Shown here: positions 348 through 14,952 of the stretch, piece by piece
Position numbering within the stretch: position 1 is the stretch's first letter
How the letters are laid out: each line of letters opens with the position of its first letter
Virus record (IMG/VR): IMGVR_UViG_3300028610_001711
Location: 1-38,456 of that record
Length of the DNA stretch: 38,456 bases
Source of the DNA: a virus
Strand: one strand, 5' to 3'
Position numbers and translations under genes: made by a program
The notes under the pieces: model-generated
What the model saw: the letters and a program-made list of their open reading frames with translations, nothing else
What the model was told of the DNA's origin: nothing
Databases searched by the model: none

Positions 348-361
348 TTCATACCCTTTTG

Positions 362-814
362 TTTGGGCCTAAAGTTCTTTTATAATAGCATATTTGGGCC
401 ACCATTACAACCACAGTTCGAGATAACTGTCACCATGGGATACTATAGACTGTCCATAGACAACCATAGTACACGGTTAACACACTGGAGCACAGTCTGG
501 GCCATCGTGCAAGCCTCCGTGCCCCCAACCACCAGCCTATTATACAATCTTTTTTACAGTATGTCAAGCATTAACAACCATGGTTGTATGGTATGATGGT
601 TTGGGCCGAACTTAATTGCTAGATCAGCGTGGGGTATGCAACGCTTCAGGTGCTCTCAGGGCGGTTTATACCATACAACCATGGTTGTGATACCAACGAA
701 CCCTTTGGGCCATTAATCAGGCTACAATGGCCCGATGAATTTTTCCACAATGCCAAGCCCCAAGCATTTTACAGTCAAATTGTCAAGAGAATTCTAACTA
801 TGGTTGTTTGGGCC
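362..814. repeat. TTTGGGCC octamer repeats
   Basis: Exact TTTGGGCC copies lie at 362-369, 393-400, 600-607, 704-711 and 807-814, all in the same orientation, with a CTGGGCC variant at 497-503. At 553-607 and 770-814 the octamer closes a composite unit in the order TTTTACAGT, TGTCAAG, a GGTTGT palindrome arm, then TTTGGGCC. The octamer is GC-rich in an AT-rich setting. Its function is unknown. Confidence 0.6.
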
Positions 815-942
815 AACATGAAAATAAATCACTTGTAAAAAAGAATAGCGCTTGATCCAGTCTTTTATACATGGTCTAATACCCCTATATGAAAACGAAG
901 GATTTGTCAAGTTATTTACATTCTTTTATACAATTAATATAC

Positions 943-971
943 TTGACAACCATCGTAAAATGTGCTAAGGA
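943..971 (+). promoter_or_regulatory. Promoter-like element, copy 1
   Basis: TTGACA (943-948), a 17-base spacer ending TGTGC, then TAAGGA (966-971). The palindrome half site ACAACCAT overlaps the -35 box. The -10 box is poor for sigma-70, so a different sigma factor or an activator could be involved. Two more copies with the same architecture lie downstream. Confidence 0.4.
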
Positions 972-1015
972 GGTAAAATAATACCTGACTAAAATACTCA
1001 ACTATTCAAATAATC

Positions 1016-1044
1016 TTGACAATTGTTGTCAAGTGTGGTACGAC
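1016..1044 (+). promoter_or_regulatory. Promoter-like element, copy 2
   Basis: TTGACA (1016-1021), a 17-base spacer ending TGTGG, then TACGAC (1039-1044). The TGTG before the -10 position is shared with copies 1 and 3, although the rest of the spacer differs. Confidence 0.35.
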
Positions 1045-1165
1045 CACAACCATGGTTAAAATGCTCCCTAACTGCCCACAGGCCATAGAGTGATAGGGAC
1101 AACCACGGAAAACGGTTGCCACAATTGACGATGGTTGTCAAGTAAAAAATTGTCAACAACCATGG

Positions 1166-1194
1166 TTGACAATGGCGGGGAACTGTGCTAAGGG
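1166..1194 (+). promoter_or_regulatory. Promoter-like element, copy 3
   Basis: TTGACA (1166-1171) is formed by the right arm of the palindrome at 1151-1172. A 17-base spacer ending TGTGC and TAAGGG (1189-1194) follow. A protein bound to the palindrome would cover the -35 box. Confidence 0.4.
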
Positions 1195-1721
1195 TTCCAG
1201 CCGCGAAACTGTGGTTGTCGTGAGGACAGACCTTACTATCATTGAAAAACCAATATCCACCTTTACCCACAATTTTCCACTCTTCGACACAATTTAATCC
1301 CTTATAATTTATGAGCTTATAATTTATTAGATATTTTCTCACCCTGTACACGCCCAAAAATTGCTCAAATATCAATTAATGCTAACGCACGCGTTAGTAT
1401 AGTGGCCACAGGGTGCTGAAAGAGCCGATTTAAGAGCCGATTTACAGCTCCATTTACAACCACAGTTAAGACCCCATTTACAATGGCATTTACAGCCATA
1501 TTTAACAGTTCATTTACAACCATAGTAAAGACTTGACTAAAGGATTGACTAACCCTTTCGCTATAGCCTTGACTAACCCTCTGACTACCGGAGGAACTAC
1601 CAATGGGACTACGAATGTATGTATAGGGTCATTTACCGAACCATTTACAACGTAGCTAAGACCCATGTAAGAGTATAGCTAATCATTATAGCTAATAGGT
1701 AGTAAGAATGTAATTTACAGG

Positions 1722-1770
1722 TTGTATTTACAGAATAAGTAAGGTATACTACAGCCATAAATTATAAGGA
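1722..1770 (+). promoter_or_regulatory. Promoter and leader of the array
   Basis: TTGTAT (1722-1727), 17 bases, TATACT (1745-1750), then the leader CAGCCATAAATTATAAGGA (1752-1770), whose AAGGAG end is the ribosome-binding site of the first array gene. The TATACT plus 19-base leader recurs almost exactly at 3143-3168 before the third family member, so it is a reused expression element. The -35 box is weak. Confidence 0.45.
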
Positions 1771-1780
1771 GAGAATAGTG

Positions 1781-2176
1781 ATGAGTGAATCAATGGGACT
1801 ATGGAGTATCGAGGGTAAACTTCACTGGATTGATAGCGGTGAGGATATTGATTCCATAAAACGGTGTGAGTTCTGCCGGGAGTTCTTCAAGAAAGGCTCG
1901 GTGTTCAAGGCTCATGAAAGTCGTTGTGATTATCAGCACGGTGGCCAGACGCCCTGTCCAAGATGCCACAGCCCTGACATTCGGCACGAGGCGGCAAACT
2001 GTCCCTGTTGCAGAACGTGGGAAGGCCCCACATGTTGGTCTGTACCGATCTGTAATGAATGTGGACTCACAGGGACAGCGAACTCAGACGGTACGGTTTG
2101 GGATCAGTTGGTTTATATAGATGGCCTTCAAGGTCGAAGGTGGAGGCCGTGGAACTGGAAAGATGGTGACGACTGA
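1781..2176 (+). CDS. Cys/His-rich zinc-finger protein at the head of the array
   Basis: A 131-residue protein. The ATG at 1781 is preferred to the in-frame GTG at 1778 because AAGGAG lies at 1766-1771. It has three putative metal sites: a C2H2-like CEFC...H...C stretch near residues 28-50, CPRC plus CPCC near 58-78, and CNECG near 92. The repeated CxxC pairs point to structural zinc, so it may bind nucleic acid or protein; no family is recognised. Its TGA shares one base with the ATG of M1, so the two are translationally coupled. It lacks blocks A-D of the family that follows. Confidence 0.8.
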   Translation: MSESMGLWSIEGKLHWIDSGEDIDSIKRCEFCREFFKKGSVFKAHESRCDYQHGGQTPCPRCHSPDIRHEAANCPCCRTWEGPTCWSVPICNECGLTGTANSDGTVWDQLVYIDGLQGRRWRPWNWKDGDD

Positions 2177-2667
2177 TGTCATATAACAAGTATAAAGATG
2201 CCGAGTATAAGTTTACTGCCATTGCTAATCGCCATTTAGTGGGGGTTCCAATTGATACATGTTATATCGCTGCTGTACAGGGTGCCAGTTATCGTGGAAT
2301 TGGGAAGAGTGCGAAAGAGAGAATTGAGAACTTCGTAAATGAGATGCCTGTTGGGGGTGTTGTTTATGATGGGTATTTGCTTTATGATCTAGACACTGAG
2401 CTATTTGCTGGTGTTGATGGAAAATGGGAGAAGCGAGTAAAGAATATCCTAATTGACGGTGGTGACGTTAGTTTTCCTGCTGGTGAAGCAGTCCCACGTT
2501 TTAGTGTGGTTACATTACAAAGATTAGGAACGGGGGATGAAGTGGTGTTGGTTCCTTGTAAATCCCATGTGGCAGCGATTGATGATGATCTATTTATTTA
2601 TCAGGAGTTTGATTGGCACCGGGCATTTGGTTTAAAGAGCAGGAGCGGCAAGTTGTCGATTATGTAA
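2176..2667 (+). CDS. DFVNAF-family paralogue M1
   Basis: A 163-residue protein. Block A is GYLLYDLDTELFAG (66-79), Trp 84 follows, block C is VVLVPCKSH (123-131) and block D has the diverged form FDWHRAFGLK (145-154). It ends in a SRSGKL tail. M1, M2 and M3 form one subfamily: they share LLYDLDT(E/D)LFA, LVPCKSH, QEF(D/N)W and S(R/K)SGKL almost word for word but differ in the first 60 residues. Function unknown. Conserved cores with free N-termini suggest a common fold with variable partners. Confidence 0.85.
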   Translation: MSYNKYKDAEYKFTAIANRHLVGVPIDTCYIAAVQGASYRGIGKSAKERIENFVNEMPVGGVVYDGYLLYDLDTELFAGVDGKWEKRVKNILIDGGDVSFPAGEAVPRFSVVTLQRLGTGDEVVLVPCKSHVAAIDDDLFIYQEFDWHRAFGLKSRSGKLSIM

Positions 2668-2669
2668 TT

Positions 2670-3158
2670 ATGAGCAATCCACAAACTATAGGGGATCTTA
2701 TTAGGGAAATGGAGGAAAGGGATGGAATGTATGAAATGGAGAAAGGGAATTTTACTATGAGCAGTGGTATAGCTTGTAGGTTTGTTAATAAGCTGCCTGT
2801 TAATGTACGTGATAATTATTATTCTGGATATTTGCTTTATGATTTAGATACTGATTTATTTGCTGGTGCTGAAGGAGAATGGGAAGAACGAGTAAAGAAT
2901 GTTCTGCTTGAGGGTGATGGTGAGGATGTTTATTTTATGACTGGTGAGGATTGGGGGCCAAGTCCATACTTTAATAACGCAACGGCGTTGGACCTCTTGA
3001 ATAAACGAGATGAAATAATACTGGTTCCCTGTAAATCCCATGAGTCAAGGGTTACTGGTAATTTATATATCTGTCAGGAGTTTGATTGGAAATGGGCAGT
3101 TGTAATAAAGAGTAAGAGTGGCAAGTTGCTGATTAATCAATCTATACTTCAGCCATAA
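2670..3158 (+). CDS. DFVNAF-family paralogue M2
   Basis: A 162-residue protein with ATG at 2670, three bases after the TAA of M1. An in-frame ATG at 2613 would lie inside M1 and is unlikely. The core is GYLLYDLDTDLFAGAEGEW, IILVPCKSHES and QEFDWKWAVVIKSKSGKLL, closest to M1. Its N-terminal 50 residues (MSNPQTIGDLIREMEERDG...) are unrelated to M1, but IGDLI recalls the SIGDII start of M6 and M7. The tail runs into the repeated leader that precedes M3. Confidence 0.85.
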   Translation: MSNPQTIGDLIREMEERDGMYEMEKGNFTMSSGIACRFVNKLPVNVRDNYYSGYLLYDLDTDLFAGAEGEWEERVKNVLLEGDGEDVYFMTGEDWGPSPYFNNATALDLLNKRDEIILVPCKSHESRVTGNLYICQEFDWKWAVVIKSKSGKLLINQSILQP

Positions 3159-3168
3159 ATTATAAGGA
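3143..3168 (+). promoter_or_regulatory. Second copy of the array leader
   Basis: TATACT, two bases, then AGCCATAAATTATAAGGA, matching the element at 1745-1770 with one mismatch over 26 bases. It overlaps the end of M2 and supplies the ribosome-binding site AAGG for M3. No -35 box is visible at the right distance, so it may act as a translation leader more than a promoter. Confidence 0.45.
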
Positions 3169-3175
3169 TTTGTAA

Positions 3176-3661
3176 ATGTCAATTGCAGGACAAGAGAAAA
3201 GTAGAACCCTACGGGATAAAATAAAGGTAAGGGCCACGGTTGATGCAGTTACTTTTAGTACTGGGACAACGGTTATTACGTTTATAGACAATATGCCGCC
3301 CTCTGATATAATTGCCGTTTTTAATGGGTTTTTGCTTTATGATTTAGACACTGAGCTATTTGCTAGTGATAAACATGGGTGGGTTGAACATGAAAAAGAT
3401 TTGATTATTCATGTTGATCATGCCTATGTATCATGGGGAGAGAATGAACTATGGGGGAAAGATCTTGATGCCGCGCATCCACTTCTTAATGGTCAGCGGA
3501 TATTATCTTTATTAAAAAAGGGGGATGAAGTGGTGCTGGTTCCCTGTAAATCCCATGAATCAATAGTGGGGGAAGTTTTATTTATTTATCAGGAGTTTAA
3601 TTGGCAGTGTGCATTTGGTATAAAGAGCAGGAGCGGCAAGTTGCCGATTAAGTACTCATGA
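3176..3661 (+). CDS. DFVNAF-family paralogue M3
   Basis: A 161-residue protein of the M1 subfamily: GFLLYDLDTELFASDKHGW, VVLVPCKSHES, IYQEFNWQCAFGIKSRSGKLPI. The end matches M1 also at DNA level, showing a recent duplication, while the first half is different. The start at 3176 is set by AAGG in the leader. The stop overlaps the ATG of M4 (ATGA at 3658-3661). Confidence 0.85.
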   Translation: MSIAGQEKSRTLRDKIKVRATVDAVTFSTGTTVITFIDNMPPSDIIAVFNGFLLYDLDTELFASDKHGWVEHEKDLIIHVDHAYVSWGENELWGKDLDAAHPLLNGQRILSLLKKGDEVVLVPCKSHESIVGEVLFIYQEFNWQCAFGIKSRSGKLPIKYS

Positions 3662-4068
3662 GCATTAAAAATATGAGAAAATGGATGGCTGATATTGTTG
3701 ATATTAATAAAGAGACGCGTGCTCTTCACCTTCCCCTTAACAGAGAGATTAACAAAAGGGAAGGGTATGCTATTTGGCATGTGGAAAAGGAAGAGTATTT
3801 GTTTGTGGATAATGGCCATATTGGTTGGGACACTGCTGGTTTTTACTTGATCAGTGAAAAAGATATGGAGGCGTTACAAGAATTGTTATGGAAAAGGGTG
3901 TTCCAGCGAGAGATGCCGGTCTCGACAACAGAGAGGCAGAGGAATTTGTATCTAGGTGTGTTTAATGATGTTGATAAGGTACAAGTCATTCCTTGTGTGA
4001 AATATAAGGGTGAAGAATCAAAGCTTGACTTTGTTAATGCATTTGGGTTTGATGGAGCCGGAAGATGA
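3658..4068 (+). CDS. DFVNAF-family paralogue M4
   Basis: A 136-residue protein and the first with the full block D: GYAIWHVEKEEYLF (36-49), Trp 57, VQVIPCVKY (108-116), LDFVNAFGF (123-131). The last 57 bases of core DNA (from the IPCVKY codons to VNAF) differ from those of M6 at only a handful of positions, so codons as well as residues are conserved. Four-base ATGA overlaps lie on both sides. Confidence 0.85.
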   Translation: MSIKNMRKWMADIVDINKETRALHLPLNREINKREGYAIWHVEKEEYLFVDNGHIGWDTAGFYLISEKDMEALQELLWKRVFQREMPVSTTERQRNLYLGVFNDVDKVQVIPCVKYKGEESKLDFVNAFGFDGAGR

Positions 4069-4505
4069 GTCATACTGAGAAGAAATATGAAAAGAGACTG
4101 CTGACCCCGGAAGAACGATGGAATGATGTCGTGGATGATGCCCGTGTTGTTAGGCATAATGCTGAGATTGTTTCTGATATTAATAGGGAGATCAATAAGG
4201 TTGAGGGGTATGTCATTTGGCATATGGATGATGATAAGTATCTGTCTATGGATGATGATACTATTGGTTGGGATATTGCGCATTTTGTTGTCATTGATGG
4301 AGAAGATATAGAGATGTTGCAGGAGATGTTATATACGGGTTCTGACACCATCCTGACGGTAGCATCTGATTATCAAGTAGATTTGTATCATGCTGTGGTG
4401 ATCTGGGTGGCTCATTTACAGATTGTTCCTTGTGTAAAATACGAGGGCGAAGAGCCACAGTTTGATTATGTTAATGCATTTAGGTTTGATAGGGCTGAAC
4501 AATAA
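4065..4505 (+). CDS. DFVNAF-family paralogue M5
   Basis: A 146-residue protein. GYVIWHMDDDKYLS (48-61), Trp 69, LQIVPCVKYEGEEP (118-131), FDYVNAFRF (133-141). It is closest to M4 (shared INREINK(R/V)EGY and VKYxGEE). An extra charged N-terminus of about 25 residues precedes the shared part. It ends the first uninterrupted run of members; a 37-base gap and the HicB-like gene follow. Confidence 0.85.
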   Translation: MSHTEKKYEKRLLTPEERWNDVVDDARVVRHNAEIVSDINREINKVEGYVIWHMDDDKYLSMDDDTIGWDIAHFVVIDGEDIEMLQEMLYTGSDTILTVASDYQVDLYHAVVIWVAHLQIVPCVKYEGEEPQFDYVNAFRFDRAEQ

Positions 4506-4542
4506 GTAATTTACTGAATACAAACTAACAGAGGAATACAAA

Positions 4543-4845
4543 ATGAAAAAATCAGAGAAAACATTTACACGTATCAAATGCGAATTGATTAGAAGTGGTG
4601 AGGGGTACGCCGTTGAAATCCCGATGATGCTCATTTACACTCAGGGTGAAAGCAAAGAGGACGCCTATTCTATGGCCAAAGATTCTGTTGAAAATGTTTT
4701 TAATAAAGCAAATGTTGAAGTAATTATCTCTGATGTTGAAGATGACATTTTCTACATCACATCCACCAATGAAAAAACTTTCGTGGATTTTATTCGGAAA
4801 CAAGCCCCTACTACCGTAGAGGTAATGAACAGACGCAGAAATTGA
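4543..4845 (+). CDS. HicB-like small protein
   Basis: A 100-residue protein. Residues 19-52 (EGYAVEIPMM...TQGESKEDAYSMAKDSVENVF) match the HicB pattern, where a strand with GY-x-V-x-h-P is followed by T-x-G-x-S/T-x-x-E-A and a helix. HicB proteins are antitoxins with an RNase H-like fold, usually next to a HicA toxin. No HicA-like gene (short, GxSH motif) is adjacent, and no DNA-binding C-terminus is evident. It may be an orphan that neutralises a host HicA, or simply share the fold. A GAGG ribosome-binding site precedes the ATG. Confidence 0.55.
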   Translation: MKKSEKTFTRIKCELIRSGEGYAVEIPMMLIYTQGESKEDAYSMAKDSVENVFNKANVEVIISDVEDDIFYITSTNEKTFVDFIRKQAPTTVEVMNRRRN

Positions 4846-4868
4846 AAACCATTTGGCGAGGCTGAATA

Positions 4869-5369
4869 ATGAGTAATTTATTGAAATGGATGGATGCAGT
4901 GAAAGAGCAGAAATTCACCGAAATGGTGAAAAAGCATTCTTCAGAACTACTCGGATATGCCCACTGGATAAAGGGGGAACTTGAGGCTGAGGATTTGTTG
5001 CAGAAAACATGGCTCAAGGCATGGAGAAACTATGATAAAATTAAAGACGTGAAATCAGAAATAGCTTGGCTCAAGTTTATGATGAAACGCCTCTCTTTGC
5101 ATCAATTTGAGAGAATGGAATCAAAGATGGTGTTTATCCCCTTGGACGAACAGGAAAGAGACCTTTATTTTAATGTTGATTTCACTGATGCCATTTTTCT
5201 GGAACAGATGTTTGACAGAGCTTCACCTAAAGCGGCAGAGGCAGGAAGGCAGCGTGTACAAGAAGAATTAACTAATGTAGAAATACACAGAATGTATGGT
5301 ACCAACCCAATAACAGTAGCAACCAGATACATGCGTTTCGTAAAATATTGTCAGGAAAACTTACAATGA
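4869..5369 (+). CDS. ECF-like sigma factor
   Basis: A 166-residue protein with the two-domain plan of extracytoplasmic-function sigma factors. Residues 28-75 match sigma region 2: a short helix, then EAEDLLQKTWLKAWRNYDK, then EIAWLKFMMKR, the counterpart of the usual xAEDLxQExFLxxWR...WLxxIAxN. Residues 134-166 (LTNVEIHRMYGTNPITVATRYMRF...) read as a region 4 helix-turn-helix ending in the typical basic helix. It would bind host core RNA polymerase and redirect it. It is embedded in the array, and its stop overlaps the ATG of M6, so it is co-expressed with the paralogues. It does not resemble T4 gp55, which lacks region 4. Confidence 0.72.
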   Translation: MSNLLKWMDAVKEQKFTEMVKKHSSELLGYAHWIKGELEAEDLLQKTWLKAWRNYDKIKDVKSEIAWLKFMMKRLSLHQFERMESKMVFIPLDEQERDLYFNVDFTDAIFLEQMFDRASPKAAEAGRQRVQEELTNVEIHRMYGTNPITVATRYMRFVKYCQENLQ

Positions 5370-5707
5370 AATCAATAGGTGACATAATAAATGGTATGAA
5401 GTGGATGAATGTAGAGAAAGGGTATGTTCTATTACATATGGATTTAGACGCCTATCTGTTTGTTGATGACGAGTTACGATGGGACGCTGATAAGTTTTCT
5501 TCTATTGAAGAAGAAACTATTGATGTATTACGAGATTGGGTATGGCGGGGGACACCGAGTCTTGCATTAATCCCATTGTTGTTTCCGTTGTTCCAGTTTA
5601 TGTTTGACATGGCTGATTCTATTTTGGTCATTCCTTGTGTGAAATATGAGGGTGAAGAACCAAAGCTTGATTATGTTAATGCATTTAAGTTTGCTAGGGC
5701 CGAGTAA
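5366..5707 (+). CDS. DFVNAF-family paralogue M6
   Basis: A 113-residue protein, one of the shortest complete members. The ATG at 5366 (ATGA overlap with the sigma gene) is preferred to the TTG at 5348. It starts MKSIGDIINGM, nearly the same as M7, then GYVLLHMDLDAYLF (19-32), Trp 39, ILVIPCVKYEGEEPK (86-100), LDYVNAFKF (101-109). A hydrophobic stretch LIPLLFPLFQFMF (68-80) may be a buried helix. Confidence 0.85.
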   Translation: MKSIGDIINGMKWMNVEKGYVLLHMDLDAYLFVDDELRWDADKFSSIEEETIDVLRDWVWRGTPSLALIPLLFPLFQFMFDMADSILVIPCVKYEGEEPKLDYVNAFKFARAE

Positions 5708-6075
5708 TGACATCAATAGGTGACATAATAAAGAATATGAGATCAGCGTATGTCGTAAATCCTGATATAAGTAGCTGTATTGTATACAATACAAGGTATG
5801 AGAAGTATTTGAATGCAAATCTGGTTAACAATTATGTGTATTGGGATACAACTGGTTGGCTTTCTATACCGGATAAAGGAATTGAAATATTAAATGAGTT
5901 GTTAGTGGATGAATGCCAGCCCCTGCTAGTAGATACATCACTGGAAGCCATGGTTCCGATCATACAACTGGAACTGGAGTACATATTAATTGTTCCGTGT
6001 ATCCATTTTAAAAAGAAAAGCACAGAAGTACAGCTTGATTTTGTTAATGCATTTAGGTTTGATGAGGCTGAGTGA
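5707..6075 (+). CDS. DFVNAF-family paralogue M7
   Basis: A 122-residue protein. Its start codon shares one base with the TAA of M6. Its first 10 codons (MTSIGDIIKN) copy those of M6 at DNA level, pointing to a local tandem duplication. The core reads CIVYNTRYEKYLN (24-36), Trp 46, ILIVPCIHF (93-101), LDFVNAFRF (110-118). Confidence 0.85.
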   Translation: MTSIGDIIKNMRSAYVVNPDISSCIVYNTRYEKYLNANLVNNYVYWDTTGWLSIPDKGIEILNELLVDECQPLLVDTSLEAMVPIIQLELEYILIVPCIHFKKKSTEVQLDFVNAFRFDEAE

Positions 6076-6473
6076 TGGCTGAGTATTGGTATGATATTGT
6101 GGATAAAGCTGCTGCTTCTATCGGTGGTATTGGTTCCCTTGGTAAAGCCATTGAAGATATTGTTAAGGAAATATCCAAGAAAGAGGGATATGTTATTTTT
6201 GATATAGAAAGGGAAATGTATGTGTATATAGACGAAATTGTTGCGGTGTGGGATATTGATAAGTTCACTATTATTTCTGGAGATATCATTGATTCAATAC
6301 AGGACATAATTTCACACAACAAAAAGGAAATAATAGTAGGTTTGGATATATCCTTCCTTAATACGATGCGGGGGGTGGTTGATTCTCTGCTGATTATTCC
6401 TTGTGTGGAATATACGGGATTAGAACCAAAGCTTGACTTTGTTAATGCATTTAAGTTTAATGGGACTAAGTGA
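6075..6473 (+). CDS. DFVNAF-family paralogue M8
   Basis: A 132-residue protein. The ATG at 6075 is preferred to the GTG at 6072 because it directly follows the TGA of M7. GYVIFDIEREMYVY (38-51), Trp 59, LLIIPCVEY (105-113), LDFVNAFKF (120-128). The 25 bases ending at GCATTT in block D are identical to those in M4. A Gly/Ala-rich N-terminus (AAASIGGIGSLG) is private to this member. Confidence 0.85.
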   Translation: MAEYWYDIVDKAAASIGGIGSLGKAIEDIVKEISKKEGYVIFDIEREMYVYIDEIVAVWDIDKFTIISGDIIDSIQDIISHNKKEIIVGLDISFLNTMRGVVDSLLIIPCVEYTGLEPKLDFVNAFKFNGTK

Positions 6474-6931
6474 TGACTCAATCTACCCATCAGCGAACTG
6501 GGGTGAATAAAATTGCTGCTAAGTTGGTAAGGGGGAATATTGGTATTAGGGACGGTATCCAGAAGATAATTAAGAAACTCCATAAACAAGAAAAGCATAA
6601 AAGGGATGAACACACGGAGAAGGGGTATATTGTCTGGAATTCTATAGAGGATGTGTACTTAGGTGATAATGGATATCCAACCGAATCTATGTGGGAACAG
6701 AGTATTACATCTTTCATTTATTTTCTTTCTGAAGAAGATGTTGATGTGGTGCAGGCGTTGATAATTAATCATGGTCGATCTTCTGTAAATATAACGTCGC
6801 GGCAGTTAACTATATATCGAGCTGTGAATGAAATTTTGGACGGTGTGGTAATTGTTCCTAGTGTGTATTCTACAATGGGATATAAAGAGTTTGATTTTGT
6901 TAATGCCTTTAAGTTTGGTACAATAAAATGA
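6473..6931 (+). CDS. DFVNAF-family paralogue M9
   Basis: A 152-residue protein. A basic N-terminus of about 45 residues precedes the core (MTQSTHQRTG...HKQEKHKRDEHTEK). The core reads GYIVWNSIEDVYLGDN, then Trp, VVIVPSVYS (the usual Cys after Pro is Ser) and FDFVNAFKF. The basic head could contact nucleic acid or membrane lipids. The ATG at 6473 overlaps the TGA of M8, and its own stop overlaps M10. Confidence 0.83.
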   Translation: MTQSTHQRTGVNKIAAKLVRGNIGIRDGIQKIIKKLHKQEKHKRDEHTEKGYIVWNSIEDVYLGDNGYPTESMWEQSITSFIYFLSEEDVDVVQALIINHGRSSVNITSRQLTIYRAVNEILDGVVIVPSVYSTMGYKEFDFVNAFKFGTIK

Positions 6932-7242
6932 TTAACGAAATTGGAAATTTTATATACGTGGTTTCTCACGATAAGTATGTTCGGATGAAGGAAAAGGATG
7001 TTGGTAATCTTTGGGAACCGAATTTGCGTTTATCTGATGAGCCCTCTCCTAACAGGAGATATAGGTTGGTGGAGAAAAGTTTTATTATTACCTTCCTATT
7101 GTATATGAATATTAAGTTTGAGGACGTTAAGATTGTTGGATTTGTTCAGGAAGATGGTGAGATAGAAGTTGACCACCAAAGCATTACCAATTTATTTAAT
7201 ATTTTTGGTTCTGATGGTGTTAAAATTAGTGTTTGGCTATAG
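6928..7242 (+). CDS. DFVNAF-family paralogue M10 (degenerate)
   Basis: A 104-residue protein in the array that has kept only traces of the pattern. FIYVVSHDKYVRM stands for block A, a Trp at residue 28 for block B, VKIVGFVQEDGEIEVD for block C (no Pro), and NLFNIFGSDGVKI may be a remnant of block D. The reading frame is intact and overlaps M9 by four bases. It is either a strongly diverged copy or a decaying one. Confidence 0.72.
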   Translation: MINEIGNFIYVVSHDKYVRMKEKDVGNLWEPNLRLSDEPSPNRRYRLVEKSFIITFLLYMNIKFEDVKIVGFVQEDGEIEVDHQSITNLFNIFGSDGVKISVWL

Positions 7243-7252
7243 GAGAAAGAAC

Positions 7253-7780
7253 GTGGATAAGTATAAGTTGATTGAAGTGTCAGATGAAACACGTAAGATT
7301 AATATGCCCGTGTTGGATGAAGACGTGCGTGACAGGGGTTTGGAAGAGTTTGGGCTTGAAGGTGATCACGGCAAGGTTGTGACCATTGATGTCTGTAAGA
7401 GCGTATACATCTGCCCTATCTGTGAAGAAGAGAATGTCATGGTGATGGTGAATAACCGTATCATCTTTGGTTCCAGTTCTTCTAATGACAGTAAAGGCGG
7501 CGAGATGTGTGTCAAGTGTTCCTCGTTACCGAAGGAAGAGATTGATGCGCGGTTTGAGGCCACTGAGGGTGGAATGAGTCCTTTGTGGCGAACTAAGGAA
7601 GAATTAGAACACCACACGATCATAATTGATGCCGGTGACGTGTTTTGGGGACAGGTAGAAGATTTTGGGAATTGTTTTTTCAGCAATTGTTCGGAAGACT
7701 TCATTGTTGACTGGTGTGCTGAAAATGGATGGTCCCTGCGTATAATGCGCGGTATTGTTCAACCCCCAAGAACGGAATAG
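7253..7780 (+). CDS. Zinc-ribbon protein within the array
   Basis: A 175-residue protein. I take the GTG at 7253 as start because AGGAG lies at 7241-7245 and because an earlier start would overlap M10 by 74 bases. CPIC (about residues 48-51) and CVKC (about 83-86) form a four-Cys ribbon separated by a Ser-rich loop. The C-terminal third is rich in aromatic and Cys residues (FGNCFFSNCSEDFIVDWCAENGW). No family is recognised. The start context, GTGGATAA(G/A) after AGGAG, recurs at the gene at 15990. Confidence 0.75.
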   Translation: MDKYKLIEVSDETRKINMPVLDEDVRDRGLEEFGLEGDHGKVVTIDVCKSVYICPICEEENVMVMVNNRIIFGSSSSNDSKGGEMCVKCSSLPKEEIDARFEATEGGMSPLWRTKEELEHHTIIIDAGDVFWGQVEDFGNCFFSNCSEDFIVDWCAENGWSLRIMRGIVQPPRTE

Positions 7781-7842
7781 TATCATGCTTACTGCTGATT
7801 TTTTTCTGGCCATACTTATAACATAACGGTGGGTGGTGGAAT

Positions 7843-8205
7843 ATGTTAAAACCACGGTTTGCTTTATATAATACACGCCAAGACAATATCCTATGCAAGA
7901 AGCAATGGAGCAATAGCAATGGCAATTCATATTATAATTTTCTATGGACTAAGGTAGAGGAAAGCCGTTATCTCATTTTGAGTTCTAGTGGTGTAGATGT
8001 TTTGATTGATCATATCTGCTATACAGTCCTTGATGAATTGGTACCTGTAGATCAACGAAGCATTGCCCACAACGTTGCCCAATTTTTAGTATTGAATAGC
8101 TTTGATAAGGATTTGATAATTATTCCCATCAAACAAGTTGGTGCTTCTTACACAGATGAATGGATAGAGCAAGGATTAGATTTTGTGAATGGATTTGGAA
8201 TATGA
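7843..8205 (+). CDS. DFVNAF-family paralogue M11
   Basis: A 120-residue protein lacking an N-terminal extension: it begins almost at block A (RFALYNTRQDNIL, 5-17). Trp 35 follows, then LIIIPIKQV (94-102), and it stops at LDFVNGFGI. A 62-base gap with no clear promoter separates it from the zinc-ribbon gene. The ATG lies after GGTGGTGGAA. The stop overlaps M12. Confidence 0.82.
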   Translation: MLKPRFALYNTRQDNILCKKQWSNSNGNSYYNFLWTKVEESRYLILSSSGVDVLIDHICYTVLDELVPVDQRSIAHNVAQFLVLNSFDKDLIIIPIKQVGASYTDEWIEQGLDFVNGFGI

Positions 8206-8585
8206 GTTTTGAGAGAGTGATTTTGGAACATATGCCTGAAGTAGAGAGTAGAGAACCTTGTCATGGGTATGTTATATTTAATCCAGCCACGAATAAGTAT
8301 TTAAGTGAGGGAATGGACCCAAGGAAAAGTCAAGGATGGCAATGGTTTAATATACCTCAAAATGTAGTATTTGCTGGTACCATACTTGAAGACCCTATTG
8401 AAGAAAGAATGTTAAGGTTAGCACAGAGTCAATATATCTCTATGAATATTGACTTGCATGGATGTATGTTAATCCCTGCTGTGTCGTATGTTGGTGACCT
8501 TAGAATTGATTATGTTGAAGTATATGTTAAGGTTGATTTCGTTAATGCATTTAATTTTTTGGATACAATAAAAAATTCCGTATAA
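8202..8585 (+). CDS. DFVNAF-family paralogue M12
   Basis: A 127-residue protein. The ATG at 8202 overlaps the TGA of M11; the in-frame start at 8160 lies well inside M11 and is rejected. GYVIFNPATNKYLSEG, two Trp (WQWF), CMLIPAVSYVGDL, VDFVNAFNF. An insert EVYVKV separates blocks C and D. It ends a run; an 85-base gap with a promoter follows. Confidence 0.85.
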   Translation: MSFERVILEHMPEVESREPCHGYVIFNPATNKYLSEGMDPRKSQGWQWFNIPQNVVFAGTILEDPIEERMLRLAQSQYISMNIDLHGCMLIPAVSYVGDLRIDYVEVYVKVDFVNAFNFLDTIKNSV

Positions 8586-8612
8586 ATGCCGTAAATTCCT
8601 TATAATTTATGC

Positions 8613-8641
8613 TTGTAATAAAGAATTAATTGTTGTATAAT
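8613..8641 (+). promoter_or_regulatory. Sigma-70-like promoter inside the array
   Basis: TTGTAA (8613-8618), 17 bases, perfect TATAAT (8636-8641), 30 bases before the membrane-protein gene. Upstream at 8594-8606 lies CCTTATAATTTAT, the reverse complement of part of the array leader. It would restart transcription midway through the array. Confidence 0.5.
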
Positions 8642-8670
8642 GGTGATAACAGTGTTATTAGAGAATTGAT

Positions 8671-8898
8671 ATGGAAATATCAGGATCAATGTTTGTAATT
8701 CTTGCAATTCTTGCAATTCTTGTAATTGGAGTAGTTATTCAATTATTCAGTGGGTTTTTCATCTGGTTATTGAAGACGCTGTTCTATTTCATTGTTTTCG
8801 TGGTCGTGTGTTATGTATTATTACTTTTGTACCCGATCATAATGATGATGCTTTCCACTCTTCTCTTAGCCTTACAATTATTTATGGCAGGATTATGA
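8671..8898 (+). CDS. Small membrane protein with two or three helices
   Basis: A 75-residue, almost wholly hydrophobic protein. Segments 7-30 and 33-60 can each span the membrane and the last 15 residues are also apolar. Repeated ILAILAIL codons start the first helix. It overlaps by four bases with M13, which carries its own N-terminal membrane helix, so the two may work together at the inner membrane. A holin role is possible from size and hydrophobicity but the charged C-terminus typical of holins is absent. Confidence 0.7.
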   Translation: MEISGSMFVILAILAILVIGVVIQLFSGFFIWLLKTLFYFIVFVVVCYVLLLLYPIIMMMLSTLLLALQLFMAGL

Positions 8899-9485
8899 TT
8901 GATTTATTGGGTTATTTAGACTTTCTAATTGAAACCAAGAAAATAGGAGATCTGACATTCTTTGTCGTTGGTTTCGGTTTATTGTTCTACGGTGCCATTG
9001 AATTTACGTTATGGGGCATATCTAAAATTGAAAATATTCTAGGTAAAATGGTTGCCTTTATTCCAGAAAAAGAATTTATGCTCACGAAAATGCCACAAAA
9101 ATATGAACAAATGGAGACTGGTCTCGTTCTTTTTAACACCAACACAGAAAAATATCTATCAGTGGAAGAGGAATGGAACGGGCATGATGGTTATGATATC
9201 TTTTATAAATGGGCAGATTCTACTTCATGCCTACTTATAAACGGAAGTGGTCATCGTAATTCAGGGTTCAGTTGGAAGAAAATGGTTGGTTACGTAGGTC
9301 GTGAAATTCACGCATGTTTATTAGTTCCTGTTGAAATATTTATTCATGACACCATGTTTGGTCGGCACCGTGGATTTTTTATGAACGCTAATTTCATTAA
9401 TGCATTCAGGTTTCAAGATGAACTTGATGACGTGTCATCTAACGTATTGAAGAAGATACTGAATGGACTTAAAAACAATGAGTAA
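8895..9485 (+). CDS. DFVNAF-family paralogue M13, membrane-anchored
   Basis: A 196-residue protein. The ATG at 8895 (ATGA overlap with the membrane-protein gene) is preferred to the start at 8808. Residues 20-42 (LTFFVVGFGLLFYGAIEFTLWG) form a membrane helix, followed by a linker and the family core: TGLVLFNTNTEKYLSVEEEW, Trp, CLLVPVEIF, ANFINAFRF. About 25 charged residues follow block D. It is one of two members with a clear membrane anchor (see M22). Confidence 0.83.
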   Translation: MIDLLGYLDFLIETKKIGDLTFFVVGFGLLFYGAIEFTLWGISKIENILGKMVAFIPEKEFMLTKMPQKYEQMETGLVLFNTNTEKYLSVEEEWNGHDGYDIFYKWADSTSCLLINGSGHRNSGFSWKKMVGYVGREIHACLLVPVEIFIHDTMFGRHRGFFMNANFINAFRFQDELDDVSSNVLKKILNGLKNNE

Positions 9486-9696
9486 AGAAAAAACAGACGA
9501 ACAACTTGACGCCGAGTACGAACGGCGATTCTGGTGGTGGCGGTTGAGGGCAGACCTTTGGTGCTGGATTTGTGGGGGCGACAGAGACATATCCAAAAGG
9601 TATAAAACCTATGCCGCAACCAACTTCTACATGGACAGACCAGCAAGGATGTGGGCGATGTCTATTATCGTTGCAGAATACGAAGGGAAAATATAG
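9478..9696 (+). CDS. Small Trp-rich protein of unknown function
   Basis: A 72-residue protein starting at the ATG at 9478, overlapping the end of M13 by eight bases. It contains WWWRLRADLWCWICGG (six Trp in 20 residues) and a single CxxC-like CWIC, then a basic patch SKRYK. No family is recognised. The opposite-strand frame at 9469-9699 is also open but lacks a start with a ribosome-binding site. A GGGGGG-like run precedes the next gene. Confidence 0.6.
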   Translation: MSKEKTDEQLDAEYERRFWWWRLRADLWCWICGGDRDISKRYKTYAATNFYMDRPARMWAMSIIVAEYEGKI

Positions 9697-9715
9697 CACC
9701 GGGGGGTAAGGCCAA

Positions 9716-10141
9716 ATGAATCGGAGGATATCGCCGGGAACAGGAACACGAAAAGTGGAACAGTTTCTGAATACAGCAACGATTCAAGAAGCGTGGCATA
9801 ACACATATCTTGGGTATTTTCTTTACAGTTTGCACAAAGAAAAGTTTTTAGATAATATCACCGTTCCGGGTAAAACAGGATTATACCTGAGTTGGGCTTC
9901 CATAACCGGATACGTGGTATTGAACAATGATTTAGAAACAAGCGAGGAAAGACACACACGTATCATGGAATTCTTTCAAAAAACTGAGGGGGACAATTGG
10001 CCTAGACAGAATTTCCTGTGTGTATTTGGAAAAGTTATATCAAACAGTGATTCACATAAACTTGTTAGTGCTGAATATGATTTCCGGCGGTCGTTTTTCT
10101 TTGACGAGAAAGAGTACACTGTGAATAGGAATCTATTATGA
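9716..10141 (+). CDS. DFVNAF-family paralogue M14
   Basis: A 141-residue protein. GYFLYSLHKEKFLDN is block A, Trp and a hydrophobic strand follow (LYLSWASITGYVVL), FLCVFGKVIS stands for block C without Pro, and YDFRRSFFF for block D. The DFRR(S/T)F form is shared with M19, and DFRHSF with M26, defining a subfamily. A basic, Gly-rich head (RRISPGTGTRK) is private. Four-base overlap with M15. Confidence 0.8.
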   Translation: MNRRISPGTGTRKVEQFLNTATIQEAWHNTYLGYFLYSLHKEKFLDNITVPGKTGLYLSWASITGYVVLNNDLETSEERHTRIMEFFQKTEGDNWPRQNFLCVFGKVISNSDSHKLVSAEYDFRRSFFFDEKEYTVNRNLL

Positions 10142-10509
10142 CACGTACACCATCACATTGGCTTTCGTCACATTGGGTTGTATATGATCCTGAAAATGAC
10201 AGGTGTTTGCGTGTCAGTGAGATAGACCACCGGATTCTATGGGAAAAGAAGCCGCTTACTAACTATCTTCTTTTGTCTTTGGATAATATTGAATATATTG
10301 AGAAGTTTCAATGTATGCTAGTGACAGTTGAGGTGGATGTTTTGGCTAAGAGAATCGTGAATAAATTGTTAATCAATTTTCTTACTAAAAAGGCAATGTG
10401 GCGGAAAGTAATAGTTGTTCCTGTTGTTGGGAGCCAGTACCACGGTCACACCTCATGTGAGGAACTACCAGAACATTTGGATTTTGTGAGGGGATTCAAA
10501 TTCACATAA
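10138..10509 (+). CDS. DFVNAF-family paralogue M15
   Basis: A 123-residue protein without an N-terminal extension: HWVVYDPENDRCLRV (13-27), Trp, a leucine-rich strand, FLTKKAMWRKVIVVPVVG, LDFVRGFKFT. M15, M16, M17, M24 and M25 form a subfamily with a FL...W(R/K)(D/E/K)I-x-x-(V/F)P block before block C. It ends exactly where M16 begins. Confidence 0.83.
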   Translation: MTRTPSHWLSSHWVVYDPENDRCLRVSEIDHRILWEKKPLTNYLLLSLDNIEYIEKFQCMLVTVEVDVLAKRIVNKLLINFLTKKAMWRKVIVVPVVGSQYHGHTSCEELPEHLDFVRGFKFT

Positions 10510-10859
10510 AATTATACAACCTTTGGGATTCTATTGATGAGACGTTTCTCATGATTAAACGTAAGGACGCAGATTATCCTAATCTCCAATGGGTTGAGGA
10601 ATTAACAGGTGGACGCAGATTATTCTTAGGTGACGATGATGTAAAAAAATTAGGAGCAATACACTCATTGTATGTTTATGGAAGATACACGGAACCAGAA
10701 ATTGCTTCACTGCCAATAGTTGTTGAAATGGATGACATGACAAGGGACATATACGACTTTGTAAAACGTACTACCAACTGGAGAGATATCTGGTTTTTCC
10801 CTGTAATGCGTGGTGGTGATGATAGAGTTATGGATTTTACAAATGGTTTTCAAGTTTAG
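10500..10859 (+). CDS. DFVNAF-family paralogue M16, probably with a non-ATG start
   Basis: The first ATG in this frame (10551) would delete block A. Translated upstream, the frame reads IKLYNLWDSIDETFLM (from 10506), a clear block A. Hence translation should begin at ATT (10500) or ATA (10506), with AGGGG at 10489-10493 at good spacing, overlapping the end of M15. From 10500 the product has 119 residues. The core continues with LQWVEEL, NWRDIWFFPVMRGG and MDFTNGFQV. A sequencing error that removed an ATG is the alternative. Confidence 0.7.
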   Translation: MHIKLYNLWDSIDETFLMIKRKDADYPNLQWVEELTGGRRLFLGDDDVKKLGAIHSLYVYGRYTEPEIASLPIVVEMDDMTRDIYDFVKRTTNWRDIWFFPVMRGGDDRVMDFTNGFQV

Positions 10860-11220
10860 ACCACAATTTACAATTTATCATCCAGAACAAGATAAATTCT
10901 TGTTCTGGTCAAATGTTGTTACGGTTTCACCACCGGGGGAGTCGATTATTTTTATGTGGGGGGATAAGTTGCCGGTGGGTCTTCGCCACATGTTGATTAC
11001 AATGCATCATATTCATGATATAGAGACTGATCAAAGTAGATTAAATTTTCTAATTAGAGATATGCTTAAGTTCCTGAAGGGTACTAGTGTATGGGAAGAG
11101 ATTATGCTTGTCCCAATAGACCGAGATACTGGCACCAGCGGCAAAGACAAAACAATTATTAATGATTTGAATTTTATTAATGCATTCAGGTGCAGTATGA
11201 TGACGGCGGGTGATAAGTAA
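10843..11220 (+). CDS. DFVNAF-family paralogue M17
   Basis: A 125-residue protein. The ATG at 10843 lies 17 bases before the end of M16; the earlier start at 10810 would add unrelated residues. FTIYHPEQDKFLFW (9-22), Trp 39, FLKGTSVWEEIMLVPIDRD, LNFINAFRC. It is the closest relative of M25 and M15. Ends with a short polar tail. Confidence 0.82.
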   Translation: MVFKFRPQFTIYHPEQDKFLFWSNVVTVSPPGESIIFMWGDKLPVGLRHMLITMHHIHDIETDQSRLNFLIRDMLKFLKGTSVWEEIMLVPIDRDTGTSGKDKTIINDLNFINAFRCSMMTAGDK

Positions 11221-11225
11221 AAACT

Positions 11226-11750
11226 ATGAGACTGGATTTAGGTACAGATGAGTTTGTAGTAGCAGATAAAAGACTAAAGCCTTTTGACTATAAGCGTAAA
11301 GGTGTAGCAATCTACAATGCTTCGCAGGATACGTTCCTATGCCGTGAATTTGAAGCCGATGATGAATGTGCGGATAGTAATTGTGGGCGTCTAGAATTTG
11401 CGTGGAAAAAGGATAAACTTATGCTTATTCCTGATGAAACATTATCCATCCTTTCAAAGAATATATTTCTAAGAACTACTGATCAACCAATTCTACGAGA
11501 AGACCTACTGTTTAAAATACCCATGACTGATTTTGTCTGGAATCATATTGATAATTGCATTATAGTGAACTGTATGTACTTCCACGCAGACGTTTATAAC
11601 CGACGTGGGTTGATCTATGCATTGGGTCAATTAGTCCGTGGGCGGGGGTTCCCGTCGTCTGAGTTGATACCTGAGAGCCATCGGGAGATATTCATAGACA
11701 TTGATCACATACACACCACCCCATTGACCATATTTAAGAGAGAGTTATGA
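11226..11750 (+). CDS. DFVNAF-family paralogue M18 (C-terminus replaced)
   Basis: A 174-residue protein. KGVAIYNASQDTFLCREF is block A, FAWKKDKLMLIPDETL carries the Trp, and NCIIVNCMYFHADVY stands for block C. The last 50 residues (GRGFPSSELIPESHREIFIDIDHIHTTPL) replace block D with a longer segment, of which FIDIDH is the only echo. Five bases separate it from M17; it overlaps M19 by four. Confidence 0.8.
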   Translation: MRLDLGTDEFVVADKRLKPFDYKRKGVAIYNASQDTFLCREFEADDECADSNCGRLEFAWKKDKLMLIPDETLSILSKNIFLRTTDQPILREDLLFKIPMTDFVWNHIDNCIIVNCMYFHADVYNRRGLIYALGQLVRGRGFPSSELIPESHREIFIDIDHIHTTPLTIFKREL

Positions 11751-12181
11751 AACCCACAATCTCTATTACAAAACCGTCAGGGGTTCAAACTATGCGAGAG
11801 CCGGAGATAAGGGTAGTGGACCACATTCCTCTTGGTCGGGAACTGGTGATACAGAAAGGATATGTGCTGTATAGTACAGAGACTGAGCGGTATTTGTCGT
11901 ATTACAGTGAGTCCCCGCAACTATGTTGGAGAGAGAAACCAATCAATTTGTTTATGAGTGAAGATGTTGATAATAGTCTTGTTTCGGTTGTGCTTGCCCA
12001 TGATATTCAATCATTTGTTGGGAAAGAAGCATATTCTTCTTGTTTCATGGTGCCCAGTGTGTATTATAGTCGGGTAGTTGACGCCTCTACAATAGATGGC
12101 AAGGTAAGTATTATTGAGGTACATGTAGTCCACGACTTTAGACGAACTTTCCCATGGAGTGACATAGCACCATGGCAATGA
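11747..12181 (+). CDS. DFVNAF-family paralogue M19
   Basis: A 144-residue protein. KGYVLYSTETERYLSYY is block A, CWREKP block B, then FMSEDVDNSL...FVGKEAYSSCFMVPSVYYS (block C) and VVHDFRRTFPW (block D). FVG before block C is shared with M22 and resembles FLG in M26. The start overlaps the TGA of M18. Confidence 0.83.
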   Translation: MKPTISITKPSGVQTMREPEIRVVDHIPLGRELVIQKGYVLYSTETERYLSYYSESPQLCWREKPINLFMSEDVDNSLVSVVLAHDIQSFVGKEAYSSCFMVPSVYYSRVVDASTIDGKVSIIEVHVVHDFRRTFPWSDIAPWQ

Positions 12182-12549
12182 TAAAAGATCTTGACTTAAC
12201 TGATGATTATCTTTGGTATAATCCGGTTAACGAGAAGTATCTCACCATAGAGTATTTGACTGAACCACCACCCACCATTAAGGAATTTAGTGAAGTAGAG
12301 CAAAAGCACCTATGGGGATTTGCTTGGGTAGATAAACCAGTAATCACTACATGGATTAGTTTTAAAGGAAAGGAAGCTGATAAGTTAACTACTTTCATAT
12401 CACAAAACCCGGATGGAAAACACGGAATGTTTGTTCCCTTCAAGTTTGTGAGAATTAGGGAAGGGGTTAATATAATCTCAGTTGATCATATACTGAGCGT
12501 GTCCTTCGCAGTTGCTAATTTAGACGATATTGGGGGATTGCATTTGTAA
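12172..12549 (+). CDS. DFVNAF-family paralogue M20
   Basis: A 125-residue protein; the ATG at 12178 overlaps the TGA of M19 in the usual ATGA way and may be the real start, giving 123 residues. DYLWYNPVNEKYLTIEY is block A, GFAWVDKP block B, GMFVPFKFV block C. Block D is weak (VDHILSVSFAVAN). Polar loop EPPPTIKEFSEVEQ between A and B. Confidence 0.78.
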   Translation: MAMIKDLDLTDDYLWYNPVNEKYLTIEYLTEPPPTIKEFSEVEQKHLWGFAWVDKPVITTWISFKGKEADKLTTFISQNPDGKHGMFVPFKFVRIREGVNIISVDHILSVSFAVANLDDIGGLHL

Positions 12550-12578
12550 TCTGGATTTTGTACTGGGATTAAGCTATA

Positions 12579-13061
12579 ATGGCATTTGACAAAGACGCGA
12601 AAATTAGAGAGAAATCAATGACATTTATTCCAAATACGTGGGTTAAAGAAACCTCGGACAACACTTATACCCTTTATCATATGGATAAAGAAGCTCATTT
12701 ATCTCTACAGTTACCAGAGGGCGTGTATACTTGGGGTGGAGAGGATATGCTTCAGTCTTGGGATGGAAAGGACACATTTCAGTTTTTTACTGATATGGAA
12801 ATTGATTTTCTTACCACCATGGTACGTTCCATGATTGAGATATCTGAGGTTACACCGCCTCCTGATGAAATTGATGTTTGTGAGGAGATGCTTGGTGGCT
12901 CTGGTATGGGTATTAGAATGCTGGGGGTAGTGAAAATGATAGTTAAAACTGGATACCAACATATACGGATAGTGCCCGGAGACTTGAAACCATCGTATAT
13001 TACAAATGGGAGGATGGTTGATGTGTGGGAGCCTGATTTTCGTTACGGAATCAGGATTTAG
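12579..13061 (+). CDS. DFVNAF-family paralogue M21
   Basis: A 160-residue protein. YTLYHMDKEAHLSLQ is block A, YTWGGEDMLQSW block B, HIRIVPGDLKPSY block C and WEPDFRYGIRI block D. The middle is longer than in other members (an acidic, Met-rich stretch with EVTPPPDEIDVCEE). It is preceded by a 29-base gap that contains TATAAT directly at the ATG, too close to serve as its promoter. Confidence 0.78.
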   Translation: MAFDKDAKIREKSMTFIPNTWVKETSDNTYTLYHMDKEAHLSLQLPEGVYTWGGEDMLQSWDGKDTFQFFTDMEIDFLTTMVRSMIEISEVTPPPDEIDVCEEMLGGSGMGIRMLGVVKMIVKTGYQHIRIVPGDLKPSYITNGRMVDVWEPDFRYGIRI

Positions 13062-13063
13062 TT

Positions 13064-13735
13064 ATGGATATGTTTACAGTTGTGATAACATGGCAAGTTT
13101 GGCTGACTGCCATTGTAATATCTGTGATAGTTTTTATTGGTCTTCGGGTAAAGAAACGACCGACAGGAGCCGTTCAGGAGAAAAGAGTATACCCCATAAA
13201 GCAGAAAGTATTGGATGCTAAGCCAGAATCTCCCTATTCTGTATACGAAGGGTATGCTCTGTATTGCACAAACAAAGATATGTATTTACGGTGTATTGAC
13301 AATTCAACTTACGACTGGGTAGAGACTTTAAGAGATGCGGAAGACTTTTTCTTGAAGGCAGATGGTGAACCAAAACCAGTTTGGCACTTTCACAAAGCAA
13401 TATCAAATTTCGTTGGGTCACTGCACTGTGTGCTAGTTCCATGCAAATTATATACAAAAAATTATCCAAATTATATACCATTTGCTTATTTTAAGAATAT
13501 GACTTATCGTGGTAGATTCACTGAACCAGATTTTAATAAATCAATGGATTTCCACGTGTATTATGAAAGAATGATAGAAGAAAGCAGTGTGCCTGAAGAA
13601 GCAATAGTGTCTTCCAGTATAAGCACCTCACTGAGCAACCCCTTGTCTAAGAAGTCGGGGCCACCAAGACCACGACCACCCCCACCCCCAAGACCACGAC
13701 CAATACCCCCAAAATCAAGAATAATTAATAATTAA
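13064..13735 (+). CDS. DFVNAF-family paralogue M22, membrane-anchored with a polyproline tail
   Basis: A 223-residue protein. Residues 3-25 (FTVVITWQVWLTAIVISVIVFIG) form a membrane helix, followed by a basic KKRP stop-transfer patch, so the core faces the cytoplasm. The core reads EGYALYCTNKDMYLRC, YDWVETL, FVGSLHCVLVPCKLY and MDFHVYYE. The last 35 residues hold two PPRPRP stretches, a run of five Pro and a basic end, a form used to bind SH3-, WW- or profilin-like partners in eukaryotes and as stiff spacers in bacteria. Plausibly a tethered effector. Confidence 0.8.
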   Translation: MDMFTVVITWQVWLTAIVISVIVFIGLRVKKRPTGAVQEKRVYPIKQKVLDAKPESPYSVYEGYALYCTNKDMYLRCIDNSTYDWVETLRDAEDFFLKADGEPKPVWHFHKAISNFVGSLHCVLVPCKLYTKNYPNYIPFAYFKNMTYRGRFTEPDFNKSMDFHVYYERMIEESSVPEEAIVSSSISTSLSNPLSKKSGPPRPRPPPPPRPRPIPPKSRIINN

Positions 13736-13736
13736 T

Positions 13737-14291
13737 ATGAGCATGATGAAGAGAATACATAAGAAAAGGAAACTTGGGAAACTTGTGAAAATCAACAAAC
13801 CGGTGTACAAGGATACTTTCCTTTCTGAAAGGCCGGAAGAGAATGATAAGGGAGTGGCGATAGCCCGTGGTAATCTATTATACAATACAGAAACAGATAA
13901 GTTTTTGAATACAGTGAATGGGAAGGTTGGTGGAGAATTTTCTTGGGAAGCCCAGAGTGCTTATTTTATATCAACTAGAAACACTGGTTCCGCAGATGAA
14001 AAAGAATTTAACAGGATTGTAAAATTTATCACACCAGAAGAGGGAATACAGTCAGTAATAGTGCCAGTAACCACATATAGACTACGAAGAACGGCATTTA
14101 CATATGAAGTGTATGTGGAAAGAAATTTTGGGTTGGCCTTTGCTTATGTAAAGTTTATACAAGAACAGGCAAGTGAAGGTGTAGCAGGCGATAATGATCC
14201 ACTTAATCAACGAACACTTATTGGTTTTGATCCCGCGCAGGATGGTGCGGATATAACGGTAATGTGTATCGGGATATCAGGTGAAATGTAG
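13737..14291 (+). CDS. DFVNAF-family paralogue M23
   Basis: A 184-residue protein. A very basic head (MKRIHKKRKLGKLVK) precedes RGNLLYNTETDKFLNTV (block A), FSWEAQSAYFI (block B), SVIVPVTTYR (block C) and VERNFGLAFAYVKF (block D). About 45 residues follow block D, ending in the hydrophobic DITVMCIGISGEM. The core pairs best with M19, M22 and M26. Confidence 0.8.
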   Translation: MSMMKRIHKKRKLGKLVKINKPVYKDTFLSERPEENDKGVAIARGNLLYNTETDKFLNTVNGKVGGEFSWEAQSAYFISTRNTGSADEKEFNRIVKFITPEEGIQSVIVPVTTYRLRRTAFTYEVYVERNFGLAFAYVKFIQEQASEGVAGDNDPLNQRTLIGFDPAQDGADITVMCIGISGEM

Positions 14292-14299
14292 AGTAAATT

Positions 14300-14659: not shown

Positions 14660-14952
14660 CTAAACAGTTCTTTGTGATCTATAATCCAGAGAAGGATAAG
14701 TTTCTCTTGGATGAAACTGACCCGGAACTTCACCGCCCGTATCGGTGGGTGGTTGGCACATCTGGATGTTCCATACTGGCCATAACAGGGGACATGCTTG
14801 ATGGGTTTATTGCAAGAGAATTTGAAACGGCTAATCATATACTTGAGTTTTTGAAAAACCACTGTCCAGATGATGGTATAATGTTGATCCCGATGAATAT
14901 GATAAATGAAGACCGGGCCACGTTTGATTTCAAGCATGGGTTTAAGTTATGA
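14656..14952 (+). CDS. DFVNAF-family paralogue M25
   Basis: A 98-residue protein and the smallest full member, so it may show the minimal fold: QFFVIYNPEKDKFLLDE (block A), YRWVVGTSG (block B), a 40-residue helical middle, DGIMLIPMNM (block C), FDFKHGFKL (block D, at the very end). The ATG at 14656 overlaps the TGA of M24; an in-frame ATG at 14644 would add four residues. Confidence 0.82.
   Translation: MTKQFFVIYNPEKDKFLLDETDPELHRPYRWVVGTSGCSILAITGDMLDGFIAREFETANHILEFLKNHCPDDGIMLIPMNMINEDRATFDFKHGFKL

Follow-up and report, generated by a model that had tools for sequence, protein, structure and literature searches.

Thirteen dyad sites in a divergent intergenic gap of a XacN1-like jumbo phage: a possible operator cluster at the terminal-repeat junction

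Described systems and the phage under study

Repeated terminase-recognition elements occur at P1 pac and lambda cosB, and operators of the CI/Cro type are dyad sites of ~14-18 bp that come in graded copies, lie between divergent transcription units and overlap promoters. In the mycobacteriophage stoperators (PMC9283540), many repressor sites are found in one phage, but they lack symmetry and are scattered across the genome, in contrast to the dyads reported here, which are concentrated in one gap. Another parallel is the jumbo phage XacN1 of Xanthomonas (AP018399), which has direct terminal repeats of 65,875 bp with ends determined by direct sequencing (PMC5852040). The right repeat end, at 65,875, falls inside a divergent gap (65,392-66,125) between ORF133 and a run of small genes starting with ORF134, and in the record 484 bases separate the second copy of ORF133 from the final base. 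This gap holds a leftward early promoter of the family TTGACA-N16/17-TAAAATGG..GGCCGGG, which in the search made was found only within the terminal repeat, and the hairpin CTAACGCAAGCGTTAG. It also holds a cluster of 11 GTTAA/TTAAC within 150 bp at 65,647, against 3 in the densest 150 bp of XacN1 1-50,000; in 3 of 2000 runs, a composition model attains the 12 GTTAA/TTAAC observed in the gap. The repeats are often spaced 11 bp apart, and the cluster lies ~125-230 bp inside the repeat end. Elsewhere in the terminal repeat there is a 2.5 kb stretch (36561-39052) with no annotated genes and no notable repeats.

The DNA analysed here, referred to as the window, is a whole IMG/VR record of 38,456 bp, and by its sequence it is a fragment of a jumbo phage syntenic with XacN1. 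Eleven of its proteins (two 5'-nucleotidases, a glutaredoxin, a macro-domain protein, an HTH protein, ClpP, the primase, DHFR, an Acb1-like protein and two small proteins) are collinear with XacN1 65-106 kb, and three further matches are weak or local. The primase shares 42% identity with its XacN1 counterpart and 39% with those of Stenotrophomonas phages CM1 and RAS14. The Acb1-like anti-CBASS protein (36621-37124; Pfam E 2e-29) has a homologue in XacN1, and a tmRNA with the tag ANDESYTEDFEEEFALAA is predicted at 36001-36339.

A near-identical sister contig, IMG/VR 3300009788_000144 (47,254 bp), begins at window position 465 and is 99.86% identical over 7,709 bases; it was also the sole match in a sigma-factor scan. 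A primase scan gave ten loci, two of which are near-identical contigs of the window phage, and of the remaining eight contigs, six supplied seven stretches for comparison; the stretch of the closest relative ends at the homologue of window position 17,624. The junction was not located in these seven stretches, so that XacN1 is the sole junction comparison. A search of genome contigs gave no primase relative. None of the compared loci outside the window phage has more than 6 of the half-sites described below in 1.3 kb. A repeat cluster in locus L120 proved to lie in a coding repeat, and one in L126 appears to be alike. In phage CBB, AGTACT occurs 158 times in 26 kb (352000-378379), frequently in both genes and gaps, and elements like AAAGTACTTGAC (at most 1 mismatch) occur 49 times forward and 11 times in reverse in the whole record. 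In the portions of the literature that could be searched, the motif of the window gave one unrelated match only, and no description of the motif or of such a region was found.

Sites in the divergent gap

Window positions 348-1777 form a divergent intergenic gap of 1.43 kb, unusually long and free of genes, and three ORFs of 69-125 aa inside it have no significant match to a Pfam family. It is flanked on the left by a leftward gene (78-347, - strand) of a small lipoprotein-like family (PHROG 30702) and on the right by a rightward gene (1778-2176, + strand), the first of a long run of small genes. This + strand run occupies 2176-16000, and several of its paralogs end in an LDFVNAF-like motif. 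The XacN1 run at the same place, members of which often end in EFMEFLxDY, consists of different families in the same architecture. A phage-encoded sigma-70 region 2 protein (4869-5369) is located within the window run.

The half-site ACAACCA is found 15 times in 350-1780 (10 on the + strand and 5 on the -), but only 6 times, three on each strand, in the remaining 37 kb of the window. An order-2 Markov composition model of the gap yields 0.74 half-sites on average and at most 5 in 2000 runs. With two perfect palindromes each counted twice, the 15 half-sites represent 13 distinct sites. The dyad consensus, ACAACCAYRGTTRW, is 14 bp long; allowing up to 3 mismatches, the full 14-mer is matched 9 times in the window, against 2.87 times (sd 1.52) in shuffled sequences, none of 100 reaching 9. 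One of these nine matches lies at 150 and three at 16-30 kb.

The perfect palindromes are located at 574-587 (ACAACCATGGTTGT) and 675-688, and near-perfect ones at 1046-1059 (+ strand, ACAACCATGGTTAA) and 1156-1169 (ACAACCATGGTTGA). The other nine sites have one intact half. On the + strand they are found at 407-420 (ACAACCACAGTTCG), 460-473 (ACAACCATAGTACA), 946-959 (ACAACCATCGTAAA, inside TTGACAACCATCG), 1099-1112 (ACAACCACGGAAAA), 1456-1469 (ACAACCACAGTTAA) and 1516-1529 (ACAACCATAGTAAA), and on the - strand at 794-807 (ACAACCATAGTTAG), 1125-1138 (ACAACCATCGTCAA) and 1205-1218 (ACAACCACAGTTTC). Two of them can be read as split sites with nine-base spacing (460, ACAACC-N9-GGTT; 1099, ACAACC-N9-GGTTGC). 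A first-pass annotation of this DNA had described fourteen copies of the dyad on both strands of a gene-free 1.4 kb region, two of them split, and clustered far above chance. All of this agrees with the present counts, except that the fourteenth copy (1648-1661, ACAACGTAGC) is degenerate and lacks the core. Extended sites form two convergent inverted pairs, one at 574-688, in which 574-594 and 668-688 are exact inverted copies of 21 nt, and one at 940-1144 (25 nt, 92%). The last two sites are overlapped by 12-nt periodic arrays (1418-1640), first of NNNNCATTTACA and then of GACTAACCCTNT-like units, built around TTTACA/GTTAAG and GACTAACCC. A hairpin- or terminator-like palindrome, CTAACGCACGCGTTAG, is present at 1382-1397.

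In the sister contig, 14 half-sites lie in the first 1,058 bases, against 9 in the other 46 kb. Its minus half-site at 337-343 is the 807 site of the window, while the 407 site and part of the 460 site precede its start. The two contigs differ at 11 positions in 7.7 kb, seven of them in 465-1777 (1.3 kb) and one of these seven in the weak half of a site; such differences are too few to test conservation of the sites.

A predicted leftward early promoter, TTGACA-17-TATAAT, is located at 539-567 on the - strand. It matches the sigma70 consensus at 12 of 12 positions and resembles the early promoters of the XacN1 terminal repeat. By an ad hoc score built from 7 XacN1 promoters, it ranks third among all window positions and leads the ones that have a complete -35. 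Eight promoters are predicted in the gap, and 3 of the 13 sites overlap them, compared with a mean of 3.05 after circular shifts. The overlap with promoter boxes pointed out in the first-pass annotation is therefore true of three sites, but it is no better than chance; the point is uninformative, not supported.

A second motif, TTTGGGCC, and the position of the gap at what is the terminal-repeat junction in XacN1 were both absent from that annotation. The motif occurs on the + strand at 362, 393, 600, 704 and 807, and a one-mismatch copy, TCTGGGCC, occurs at 496 (362-814 overall), so that successive starts are 31, 103, 104, 104 and 103 bases apart. Neither strand of the window has a further exact copy, and exact copies in the sister contig are confined to the same gap. 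The pattern was spotted first and tested afterwards: four near-equal successive intervals have a chance probability of ~3e-6 when the one-mismatch copy is counted, and for the five exact copies alone the chance of a matching pattern is ~1.3e-4. The copies are phased at ~10.35 bp, which suggests an ordered protein-DNA assembly. Three other explanations of the motif were rejected. As a piece of rightward promoters it would need a -10 at a set spacing, and none recurs consistently. A tandem duplication as the source of the 103.5-bp spacing would have left more than the little other similarity seen at this offset (autocorrelation 1.97 sd at 104). Small RNAs in 103-nt units gave no Rfam match at or above the gathering score, and fold z values ran from -1.6 to +1.4.

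By synteny, the gap has the same position as the XacN1 gap. Both are divergent and hold a leftward early promoter, the CTAACGC..GCGTTAG hairpin (at 1382 in the window) and a private cluster of short repeats. In XacN1, however, the repeat is GTTAA, the gap is half as long, and the genome end was sequenced there. There is no ACAACC in the XacN1 gap; thus the two gaps agree in position and in having a private cluster, but not in the sequence of the sites, and conservation of the sites in relatives, proposed earlier as a check, is not seen in this one.

Likeness to repressor operators

The exact 14-mer is present in 74 stretches of IMG/VR, and two full copies in one stretch occur only in the sister contig. 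The next-highest half-site counts among these loci are 6 in L055 and 5 in L053, in 1.3 kb each. In both, the 14-mer sites flank a CI-type repressor gene (HTH_3 and Peptidase_S24), and all six ACAACCA of L055 lie in two gaps beside it. These operators share with the window an identical 14-bp palindrome and weaker graded sites adjoining it. On the other hand, they have a few sites per gap next to a repressor gene of a lambdoid-type contig, whereas the window, from a jumbo phage, has its 13 sites packed into a single stretch of 1.1 kb and no adjacent repressor gene. Of the evidence on how the window sites may work, this neighbourhood is the strongest, as a likeness and not as membership.

A protein of this type was searched for in the phage itself. 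In six-frame searches, HTH_3 was found neither in the window and the sister contig, which make up the 47.7 kb known of this phage (the lesser part of its genome), nor in the complete 384,670 bases of XacN1. A second Cro/C1-type model, HTH_26, had no match above the cut-off in five records. Candidate binders encoded in the window are an HTH protein (22096-22419), the zinc-rich protein next to the gap (1778-2176) and the sigma-like protein (4869-5369). The HTH protein is conserved in XacN1 and RAS14, which is hard to square with sites that lack such conservation. The zinc-rich protein was set aside, having a weak C2H2-like match (E 0.078) and a useless structure model (pLDDT 37).

We tentatively favor the possibility that the sites are clustered operators of a dimeric DNA-binding protein, which would control divergent early transcription at the junction between the terminal repeat and the unique sequence. 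The gap would then be the control region, and its 13 dyads the operators of one protein, the strong symmetric sites and the weaker ones perhaps being bound cooperatively. As it accumulates, this protein might shut off or tune both the early genes that run leftward, on the side of the terminal repeat, and the small genes of the rightward run. Since the sites lie at what is the physical DNA end in a relative, in a long gene-free stretch, they are probably a switchboard for the first genes. The concentration of the sites in the gap, their dyad symmetry and graded strength with two perfect palindromes, the divergent flanking genes, the early-type leftward promoter, the syntenic XacN1 gap with its own promoter and private cluster, and the 14-mer beside CI-type genes in two contigs all argue for this reading. 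Several observations argue against it: overlap with predicted sigma70-type promoters is at chance level, HTH_3 is missing from the known 47.7 kb and from XacN1, the sites are not conserved there, and for operators a region of 1.43 kb would be long. Moreover, the XacN1 GTTAA cluster (from ~65,647) is situated ~120 bp upstream of the -35 of the early promoter and not on it. Of the three candidates named in the first-pass annotation (an operator cluster, an iteron origin and a partition-type site), the operator cluster nevertheless agrees best with the data on account of the 14-bp dyad, the divergent gap and the CI-type likeness, while its sites overlap promoters at chance level only and no HTH_3 protein was found in the known 47.7 kb or in XacN1.

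Alternative readings of the locus

The XacN1 end inside the matching gap keeps another function in play, namely that a terminase or an accessory protein recognizes the junction through the sites and makes the right genome end. Clustered repeats near a putative genome end recall P1 pac and lambda cosB. The directly sequenced end of XacN1 (PMC5852040), its private cluster just inside this end, and the phasing of TTTGGGCC in the window are consistent with such a role. On the other hand, the cluster of XacN1 and that of the window have different sequences, a terminal repeat in the window phage is supposed from synteny, and the right repeat boundary of phage CBB has no site cluster. Neither 21-nt end sequence of XacN1 has a match of at least 14/21 in the gap among the matches listed; the end flanks of XacN1 agree with each other at 14/21, yet a shared end motif was rejected for want of a good match in the window gap. 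The CTAACGC..GCGTTAG palindrome was dropped as an end signal as well: the XacN1 repeat has the 24-25 nt hairpin at other places too, and given this recurrence and the terminator-like palindromes of other phages, it is taken as a dispersed hairpin. All in all, a locus devoted to end processing seems unlikely, if worth keeping in mind. We rate somewhat lower the chance that an initiator binds the dyads of a replication origin, with AT-rich segments (GC 0.25-0.28 at 821-940 and 0.28 at 1301-1360) as the unwinding element. GC skew, proposed earlier as a check, does switch sign across the gap, but the switch coincides with the divergent gene orientation, which already explains it; the origin is thus possible but thinly based. 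Strong nested inverted repeats at ~1100-1220 (RNA fold z -4.9) would also suit an origin, and four inverted sites close together account for this hairpin. The dyads, however, are not the regularly spaced direct repeats of an iteron origin, having neither regular spacing nor helical phase (best R 0.61, P 0.13), which weakens that earlier candidate, and no initiator gene was recognized by Pfam among the scanned window ORFs.

The sites could instead serve a host regulator exploited by the phage. This would account for the missing HTH_3 in XacN1 and the known part of the phage, and it would agree with the operator-like setting of the 14-mer beside CI-type genes in other phage contigs. However, no host regulator with this site was identified, and the 14-mer is rare in viral contigs; we consider the idea improbable. 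Far less credible still is a centromere of the ParB-parS type: several dyads in either orientation within ~1 kb might suggest one, but no ParB was found among the 68 window ORFs scanned against Pfam, so that the partition-type site proposed before is unsupported there, and the phages found to be related are large jumbo phages of a lytic type.

The operator reading and end processing may also be combined. In XacN1-like jumbo phages, the junction might be a fast-evolving locus where a site cluster specific to each lineage and the phased TTTGGGCC copies, one every ten turns, build a single nucleoprotein complex with two tasks, to set divergent early transcription and to mark the right end for processing. 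As a whole this is a rather unlikely scheme, and we offer it as a conjecture. In jumbo phages with very long terminal repeats, the order of early transcription and the definition of the ends have been little studied. The locus provides a concrete and testable target in this respect, with its 13 defined sites, its predicted early promoter and the phased TTTGGGCC copies, and the corresponding place in a cultivated relative is where the genome end was sequenced.
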